NCBI GenBank assembly: GCA_040882465.1
Contig: JBBEBG010000009.1
Location: 1 to 64,000 of the forward strand
DNA from: Gemmatimonadota bacterium
Lineage (GTDB): Bacteria; Gemmatimonadota; Gemmatimonadetes; Longimicrobiales; Gaopeijiaceae
Direction of reading: 5' to 3'
Length of the DNA: 64,000 nucleotides
The position numbers and the translations under genes are program-made. The notes below the pieces were generated by a model. It had not been told where the DNA came from. It did not search any database and was given only the letters and a program-made list of their open reading frames with translations. Numbering within the stretch: the stretch's first letter is position 1; every line of letters starts with the position of its first letter. Positions 1,786 through 20,042 of the stretch are shown here, piece by piece.

Positions 1786-1957
1786 GCCCGCTTGGTCGCG
1801 GCAGCGAGCGAACGATGGAATGTCGGAGAATCAACTTCATGACGCGTGAGCCTGCGGATCCCTCGAGGAGCTGCTCCCGAATACCCGCTGCTCTCCAGCG
1901 AGTCCTCGCCGCGTTCCGAGCCATGGCCCGACGTCGCTCTGGGTAGAGCTTAGCCAT
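1724..1957 (-). CDS. Candidate small basic protein running into the repeat junction
   Basis: A 77-codon ORF whose ATG at 1957 is preceded by a strong purine-rich site (GGAAGAGGGG directly before ATG). The N-terminus reads MAKLYPERRRAMARNAART. This resembles the 'TPEERxxIARKAAxARW' motif at the start of many short bacterial proteins of unknown role. The last third lies inside the 476-bp repeat, past the junction at 1785/1786, so the original 3' end was probably lost when the repeat formed and the present stop is fortuitous. It could also be non-coding. Confidence 0.3.
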   Translation of the reverse strand: MAKLYPERRRAMARNAARTRWRAAGIREQLLEGSAGSRVMKLILRHSIVRSLPRPSGPGIGRVRGVECEEALGTRVD

Positions 1958-19083: not shown

Positions 19084-19803
19084 TCAAATTCCGTGGAGGC
19101 CGCACTCCAACCGGCCCCCTCCGCGCCAGCGGCCGGCGCGTTCGTGCTCCCCGTCGGCGACCGGAGTCGTGAGGGGCTCGTCGCCGATGCTCGCGTACCC
19201 CTGGTCGTGAAGGGGATGATAGGGCACTTCGTGGACCCGGACGTAAGTCCAGACGTCGTCGATCGACCACGCCGCGATGGGGTTCACCTTGATCCGGCTC
19301 GCGCGTTCGACGATCGGGAGCTCGGCCCGCGTGGGGGACTGGCCCCGGCGCCGCCCCGTGATCCAGGCGTCGAATCCCTCCAACGCCTCCCGCATCGGTT
19401 CCACTTTCGTGAGCTGGTGGAAGCGCTCGACGTCCACCGCCCAGAGTCGGGGACCGTGTTCCGCCTCGAAGGCGTCCCGGGAAGGCGCGGCCCGATAGGT
19501 GCGAAGATCGAGGCCATACCGCTCCGCGACCCGCTCGGCGTGCTCGAGCGTCTCGGGAAAGTGGTGGAGGGTGTCCACGAAGAGGACGGGAAGCCTGATC
19601 CCCTTTTCCGCGAGAAGGTGGATGAGGACCATCCCCCCGACTCCGAAAGTGGACGAAAGGGCGACCCGCCCCTGCGGGAAAGCCTCCGCCGCCCATTGGA
19701 GAATCTCCCCGGGGGCGGCGCCCTCGAACCTGCGATTCAGCTCCGCCACTTCTTCCACGGAAAATGGATGGGTCTCGACCGTTCCGCGAATCGTTGTGCT
19801 CAT
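19084..19803 (-). CDS. cysH: Phosphoadenosine phosphosulfate reductase
   Basis: 239 residues. LSSTFGVGGMVLIHLL is the PP-loop, TLHHFPET and WITGRRRGQSPTRAELP are substrate loops, and the C-terminal RLECGLHGI carries the catalytic cysteine C234. Outside this one there are no cysteines, so the CC and CxxC ligands of the Fe4S4 form are missing (SIGDEPLTTPV where APS reductases carry CC). This points to the thioredoxin-dependent PAPS class, producing sulfite in the cytoplasm. The start at 19803 has GAAGG just upstream. Transcription must pass a Cys-codon leader and an intrinsic terminator, indicating attenuation by cysteine supply. Sulfite reductase follows 150 bp downstream. Confidence 0.92.
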   Translation of the reverse strand: MSTTIRGTVETHPFSVEEVAELNRRFEGAAPGEILQWAAEAFPQGRVALSSTFGVGGMVLIHLLAEKGIRLPVLFVDTLHHFPETLEHAERVAERYGLDLRTYRAAPSRDAFEAEHGPRLWAVDVERFHQLTKVEPMREALEGFDAWITGRRRGQSPTRAELPIVERASRIKVNPIAAWSIDDVWTYVRVHEVPYHPLHDQGYASIGDEPLTTPVADGEHERAGRWRGGGRLECGLHGI

Positions 19804-19825
19804 GCCTTCGATCTCCCTATCAACG

Positions 19826-19858
19826 AAAAAGGCCCCGACCTCATCAGAGGTCAGGGCC
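19826..19858 (-). terminator. Intrinsic terminator of the cysH leader (attenuator stem 3:4)
   Basis: On the minus strand GGCCCTGACCTC pairs with GAGGTCGGGGCC: a 12-bp stem with one G-T pair around the 4-nt loop TGAT, followed directly by TTTTT at 19830-19826. It lies in the leader, 22 nt before the cysH start codon and after a Cys-rich short ORF. A terminator in front of its own gene is the mark of attenuation. Confidence 0.9.
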
Positions 19859-19883
19859 GAGGATCTCAGCGCTTCGGTTCTTG

Positions 19884-19967
19884 TTACGCCGCGCGCCTCC
19901 CGGACCGTCCCTCCGAAGGGATGGTCTGACAACAACACAGGGCGCAACAACAAGCGGTCCGAATCAT
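19884..19967 (-). CDS. Cysteine-rich leader peptide of cysH
   Basis: A 27-codon ORF, ATG 19967 to TAA 19884. The product starts MIRTACCCALCCCQTIPSEG and ends in a basic tail. Six of residues 6-13 are Cys (TGT TGT TGC, two codons, TGT TGT TGT), and Ala-Leu separate the two runs. The Cys codons lie immediately upstream of a hairpin (19926-19903) whose 3' arm can instead pair with the terminator's 5' arm. A ribosome stalled for want of Cys-tRNA would therefore free the antiterminator. The ATG has a modest GGA site about 6 nt upstream. This is too short for normal gene calling and probably has no function beyond translation itself. Confidence 0.85.
   Translation of the reverse strand: MIRTACCCALCCCQTIPSEGRSGRRAA
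19899..19926 (-). promoter_or_regulatory. Protector hairpin and antiterminator segment of the cysH leader
   Basis: On the minus strand GACC-A-TCCCT (19926-19917) pairs with AGGGA-C-GGTC (19912-19903): nine pairs, one internal mismatch, loop TCGG. GGTCCGGG (19906-19899), overlapping its 3' arm, can alternatively pair with CCCTGACC (19856-19849) in the terminator's 5' arm, 7 of 8 positions. The two structures exclude each other. Confidence 0.7.
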
Positions 19968-20013
19968 CTTTTCCAGTCTGGCCCTCTTGGGCGGCGGACA
20001 TTCCGACTTCAAG

Positions 20014-20042
20014 AGTTTACCGAGGCTCGGGGGGCCCGTCAA
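20014..20042 (-). promoter_or_regulatory. Promoter for the cysH leader transcript
   Basis: On the minus strand, -35 TTGACG (20042-20037), a 17-nt spacer and -10 TAAACT (20019-20014). The expected transcription start is near 20007, giving a leader of about 200 nt before cysH. The -35 box includes the TGA stop of the upstream chelatase gene. Confidence 0.65.

Follow-up and report, generated by a model that had tools for sequence, protein, structure and literature searches.

A short open reading frame (ORF) with two runs of Cys codons and an intrinsic terminator precede cysH in a Gemmatimonadota bacterium of the Longimicrobiales. The best explanation of this leader is, we are confident, ribosome-mediated transcription attenuation in response to the charging of tRNA(Cys). 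This reading draws on computed evidence: the parts of the leader, their class-wide conservation at operon heads, the co-variation of the antiterminator with the terminator arm, and folding that depends on the position of the ribosome. As nearly all relatives having sulfate-reduction genes carry a Cys leader and a stop signal before them, cysteine production is probably switched on when ribosomes run short of cysteine, both in the window's bacterium and in its relatives.

Architecture of the cysH leader

The window is the whole stretch of DNA that was analysed (64,000 nt). On its minus strand, the parts of the leader run from 20042 down to 19803 in the expected order and with correct spacing. 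The parts and the flanking genes are listed below.

21754-20039, minus strand: CbiX-family ORF, upstream on the same strand and ending at the -35 hexamer, outside the attenuator
20042-20037, minus strand: -35-like hexamer TTGACG, read from the sequence
20019-20014, minus strand: -10-like hexamer TAAACT, read from the sequence
19967-19884, minus strand: leader ORF of 27 codons, MIRTACCCALCCCQTIPSEGRSGRRAA*
19952-19944, minus strand: first Cys run (TGT TGT TGC), codons 6-8
19937-19929, minus strand: second Cys run (TGT TGT TGT), codons 11-13
19926-19903, minus strand: hairpin GACCATCCC/GGGACGGTC directly 3' of the Cys codons (putative protector or pause hairpin, 1:2), 8 of 9 positions paired
19906-19899, minus strand: candidate antiterminator segment GGTCCGGG, assigned by pairing capacity and conservation
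19858-19831, minus strand: intrinsic terminator hairpin, 12 pairs and a 4-nt loop
19830-19826, minus strand: terminator T-run (T5)
19803-19084, minus strand: cysH, (phospho)adenosine phosphosulfate reductase (PF01507)
18933-16624, minus strand: sulfite reductase haemoprotein (NIR_SIR), the next gene, presumed to be in the same operon

The two hexamers are 17 nt apart, match the consensus at 9 of 12 positions taken together, and form a sigma-70-like promoter. The leader ORF has six Cys codons among its 27 and starts about 47 nt past the -10 hexamer, i.e., its start is not leaderless. An earlier note on this DNA had described the promoter, the ORF with two runs of three Cys codons, a segment that can pair with the 5' arm of the terminator at seven of eight positions, and a 12-bp terminator with a T-run 22 nt before cysH. 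All of these are present: GGTCCGGG forms seven of eight pairs with CCCTGACC of the 5' arm, and 22 nt separate the end of the terminator from the cysH ATG (19803). The hairpin that the note placed directly after the Cys codons is there as well, with eight pairs rather than the nine it had counted, the remaining position of GACCATCCC/GGGACGGTC being one A.C mismatch.

The sulfite reductase gene is followed by a hypothetical ORF and then by a ThiF-rhodanese-like ORF, which was assigned by eye. An extended CysH N-terminus running through the leader (a 305-aa ORF from 20001) was rejected, because the similarity of homologous CysH proteins begins near MSTTIRG; the conserved terminator inside that region also rules it out. 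The CysH of the window (19084-19803) lacks the CC...CxxC iron-sulfur motif and belongs to the PAPS reductase type, and the CysH proteins of the f6 relatives (L025, L026, L031, and L032) have the motif and belong to the APS reductase type; the same kind of leader precedes both types. A strong 15-pair terminator-like hairpin lies elsewhere in the window (22838-22805, minus strand), ahead of a minus-strand ferredoxin ORF, and no Cys-run ORF was found to accompany it.

The 3.53-Mb genome contains the pattern TGYTGYTGY-N(6-30)-TGYTGYTGY once and TGYTGYTGY itself at 68 sites. Because the leader of the window is the only one among these 68 sites in which a short ORF is followed by a terminator (no intrinsic terminator follows any other short CCC ORF there within 200 nt), the combination of leader and terminator before cysH is not due to chance. 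A second Cys-run ORF with a terminator was found on neither strand of the 64-kb window. Searching the whole window with the Rfam 15 covariance models returned no family at gathering score, and SAM-II (SAM_alpha, RF00521) is not present in it; a permissive Rfam scan of the leader gave sub-threshold matches only, none of them credible.

Conservation at operon heads across the class

The named relatives in the window's family are Gemmatimonadetes MAGs, one of which is labelled Longimicrobiales. Among 121 genomes of this family, 15 (about one in eight) carry cysH, and 14 of these loci are informative; the fifteenth was left out because its contig ends too early. All 14 have a Cys-codon leader and a terminator upstream of cysH, with predicted peptides such as MCCCCQIPLRGGSGRCCA, MCCCRAALPGGGSGGRCA, MCCYQTFPLGGGSGRRSA, MCCCETPRGRGGSGRRRA, MLNSCCCRCSCPSPVGCRGGRRIA, and MPLRSNLSGCCCCHQTPGDRSALPSG, among others. 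Within the class, 42 cysH-bearing genomes from four families are informative, and in 39 of them leader and terminator head the sulfate-reduction operon (f1, 14/14; f3, 6/7; f6, 13/13; f7, 6/8). The earlier note had named the loss of the Cys codons or of the pairing in close relatives as the finding that would speak against its attenuator; codons and terminator are kept at the frequencies just given, and the proposal withstood this check. Of the three genomes lacking the leader, G069 and G148 have a SAM-II riboswitch in its place, and G324 has neither leader nor riboswitch. In the other families, the operon often starts with a gene other than cysH. The leader precedes the first gene in each case, be it cysH, cysC, sulfite reductase, cysD, a TauE-like gene, or a ferredoxin gene.

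Some leaders are less regular. In the window's family, no obvious ATG goes with the Cys5 run of L121, L037 carries two Cys codons, and the close relative L006 has only two left (CCY). Several f3 leaders are weak, the weakest matches being those of L131, which starts with GTG, L133, and L134. In the long f3 and f7 regions, where up to about 9 kb was scanned in each genome, a low level of background matches is expected; Cys-ORF and terminator combinations number 0.87 per 100 kb of strand in the shuffled relatives, against 7.1 observed in the operon regions. Leaders were found at none of 30 cysK-like loci of the same genomes and at none of 28 Gemmatimonadota cysS loci, and cysK and cysS were hence rejected as further members of the regulon. 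The cysD-like locus of the window's own genome (L002) has no leader, and 72 cyanobacterial cysH upstream regions gave one weak case.

The terminator might serve only to end transcription of the upstream CbiX gene, which lies on the same strand, ends at the -35 box, and is found upstream in four of the five close-group loci; the Cys-rich ORF would then be a coincidence. Leader and terminator nevertheless persist where CbiX was not found just upstream, and also where cysC, sulfite reductase, cysD, or other genes come first downstream. Moreover, the distance from the Cys ORF to the terminator is narrow, mostly 19-45 nt, and the antiterminator co-varies. This comparative evidence from the relatives' loci led us to reject a terminator for CbiX only, which we regard as highly improbable. 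With an attenuator before cysH, read-through from CbiX would run into the terminator of the leader.

Cys is the sole residue conserved throughout the leader set. This would also fit a peptide that is itself the sensor or the product, either as a Cys-rich small protein binding metal, thiol, or persulfide, or as a nascent chain whose stalling of the ribosome does not depend on tRNA charging, and translation is needed either way. Yet the number, spacing, and context of the Cys residues vary freely (CC, CCC, CCCC, CCCRCSC), and the conserved tail residues GGSGR, where present, coincide with antiterminator nucleotides. We find such a role of the peptide scarcely credible.

Several loci show further arrangements. 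Two Cys leaders, each with a terminator, occur in the operon regions of L132 (2996-3392), L136 (5139-6085), and L008 (1021-1420; all in operon orientation), about 100 to 650 nt apart, and those of L136 may serve different genes. The leader ATG of L222, L225, and L037 lies only about 8-9 nt past a good -10 box, and these leaders, but not that of the window, are probably translated from leaderless mRNA as in mycobacteria. In L144, a tiny Cys ORF (MSPCCPT) and a terminator (1889-1955, plus strand) precede a gene that resembles those for sulfate-binding proteins of ABC transporters and may also belong to the regulon.

Antiterminator pairing and ribosome-dependent folding

The close group has five members, and the segment GGTCCGGG is identical in all of them. 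The terminator 5' arm was matched against the RNA downstream of the Cys codons in 35 leaders, and its best duplex falls mostly inside the ORF, commonly 12-27 nt past the last Cys pair. As a set, these duplexes beat dinucleotide shuffles (Fisher p = 2e-8 over the 35 leaders, not all of which are independent), whereas the window's own duplex is no better than its shuffles (p = 0.6). Across clades, antiterminator segment and terminator arm co-vary: when terminator arms were exchanged between leaders, using one leader for each of 20 clades, own pairs averaged -17.5 kcal/mol and swapped pairs -15.2 kcal/mol (permutation p <= 0.001). Both strands of the duplex change in concert, from GGTCCGGG/CCCTGACC in the window to CCGGTGG/CCACCGG in group B, CCCCGGGG/CCCCGGGG in group C, GGGGAGCGG/CCCGCTTCC in group E, and GCGGCCG/CGGCCGC in L141.

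RNAalifold, applied to the RNA that a ribosome sitting on the Cys codons leaves uncovered, predicts for groups A, B, C, and E an antiterminator in which the terminator 5' arm is engaged. The consensus of group D was unconvincing and the antiterminator was not recovered; L031 of this group, folded alone as a single sequence, displays a clear switch. Within groups, RNAalifold finds few antiterminator pairs with a compensatory change, the kind of evidence by which the earlier note had proposed to check the stems; co-variation appears between groups.

The effect of ribosome position was modelled by setting a ribosome, with an assumed footprint of 30 nt, on each codon; the models are approximate and contain no kinetics. 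A ribosome on the Cys codons gives a mean terminator probability of 0.73, and one at the stop codon a mean of 0.91 (p = 3e-4). While the 3' arm of the terminator emerges, the 5' arm switches partner. In 25 leaders this happens later when the ribosome is stalled on the Cys codons than when it is stalled at the stop codon, and in five it happens earlier. The mean delay of this takeover is +1.86 nt, compared with -0.22 nt in leaders whose region between the Cys codons and the terminator was shuffled (twelve replicate means, -0.57 to +0.06). The ribosome-dependent folding expected of an attenuator is hence seen across the 35 leaders relative to shuffled controls and is marginal for the window leader, with a delay of 1 nt compared with 2 to 4 nt in its four closest relatives. 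The terminator of the window leader has a probability above 0.98 in every ribosome state and dominates at equilibrium, and equilibrium folding of this leader was rejected as proof of a switch, since no switch was shown. Taken alone, the window leader is weakly predicted to switch. What the earlier note had read as a Cys attenuator is upheld by conservation, co-variation, and folding across the set, and not by the window leader by itself, given its p of 0.6 and its always dominant terminator. The argument is carried by the comparative set, which is convincing, and the window leader would belong to it by homology.

The weak folding switch of the window leader is compatible with translational action, in which stalling or reinitiation alters the translation of cysH or Rho-dependent termination and the intrinsic terminator is secondary. 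Such action was proposed for mycobacterial polycysteine leaders, which have no conserved terminators (PMC1262725). The Gemmatimonadota leaders, however, are accompanied by intrinsic terminators with T-runs in nearly all genomes, and these terminators co-vary with a segment in the ORF. We judge translational action very unlikely and favour transcription attenuation.

Proposed mechanism and related systems

A ribosome would translate the 27-codon peptide while RNA polymerase transcribes the leader. With ample Cys-tRNA, it would pass both Cys runs and reach the stop codon, where GGTCCGGG would be covered or kept in the hairpin after the Cys codons; with this segment unavailable, the terminator would form and transcription would end before cysH. 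Under a shortage of Cys-tRNA, the ribosome would stall on the Cys codons and leave the downstream segment free for the terminator 5' arm. With the arm sequestered, cysH, the sulfite reductase gene, and probably the genes behind them would be transcribed.

The leaders may be, on a reading that we favour slightly, a class-wide cis-encoded Cys attenuator of assimilatory sulfate reduction in Gemmatimonadota, which is kept, or arises anew, at the first gene of the operon whatever its identity, is sometimes doubled (L132, L136), is sometimes joined to a SAM-II riboswitch so that cysteine and methionine supply are read together (L141), and replaces a protein regulator of the CysB or CymR type. The type of sensor tracks the operon through rearrangements of gene order. 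This provides a testable account of how sulfur assimilation is regulated in a large, poorly studied phylum and adds a conserved case in which cysteine supply would be read via the ribosome with an intrinsic terminator. The set offers roughly 40 natural variants with joint changes in Cys codons, antiterminator, and terminator, which should be useful for studying the evolution of attenuators and their exchange with SAM-II riboswitches.

This kind of mechanism is already known from the trp/his attenuators, the mycobacterial polycysteine leaders, and uORFC-8-2. New are the phylum, the class-wide conservation, and, for attenuators that combine Cys codons with an intrinsic terminator, the target operon. 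In agreement with the earlier note, which considered such an attenuator undescribed in this lineage, a literature search, mostly outside subscription papers, found no earlier description of attenuators or leader peptides in Gemmatimonadota.

In the trp/his attenuators of enteric bacteria, an ORF rich in codons for the pathway product, a protector, an antiterminator, and an intrinsic terminator precede the first biosynthetic gene. The cysH leader has the same codon-rich short ORF, putative protector hairpin, candidate antiterminator, and intrinsic terminator. Unlike trp/his, the Gemmatimonadota leaders use Cys codons and precede a sulfate-reduction operon; their peptides are short, and those of some relatives are apparently leaderless.

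SAM-II (RF00521, "alpha-proteobacterial") precedes operons of this kind in some f7 relatives and differs from the cysH leader in being a metabolite-binding aptamer without Cys codons. It was found before Gemmatimonadota sulfate-reduction genes in L027 (2326-2399, minus strand), L029 (1144-1214), and L141 (3260-3331). In L141, it lies about 150 nt ahead of a Cys-codon leader, which suggests combined control by Met and Cys.

The mycobacterial polycysteine leaders were reportedly found to be cysteine-responsive by Canestrari in 2020. Like them, the cysH leader is a short ORF with Cys runs before a cys operon. The mycobacterial polycysteine leader is a leaderless ORF, whereas that of the window is not. 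Cys-run leaders lie upstream of actinobacterial cys operons, without conserved terminators in mycobacteria (Seliverstov 2005, PMC1262725); the Gemmatimonadota leaders, in contrast, have an intrinsic terminator and a co-varying antiterminator. A Cys-codon uORF with a terminator is shared with uORFC-8-2 of Rhodobacterales cysS, whose tandem Cys codons lie in a stem and whose U-run is consistent with an intrinsic terminator (PMC8632094). uORFC-8-2 is found only before cysS in alphaproteobacteria, and the window's leader precedes cysH, with Cys leaders at 0 of 28 Gemmatimonadota cysS loci. Its two tandem Cys codons are usually at positions 14 and 15 (PMC8632094), whereas those of the window, at positions 6-8 and 11-13, form longer runs nearer to the start.
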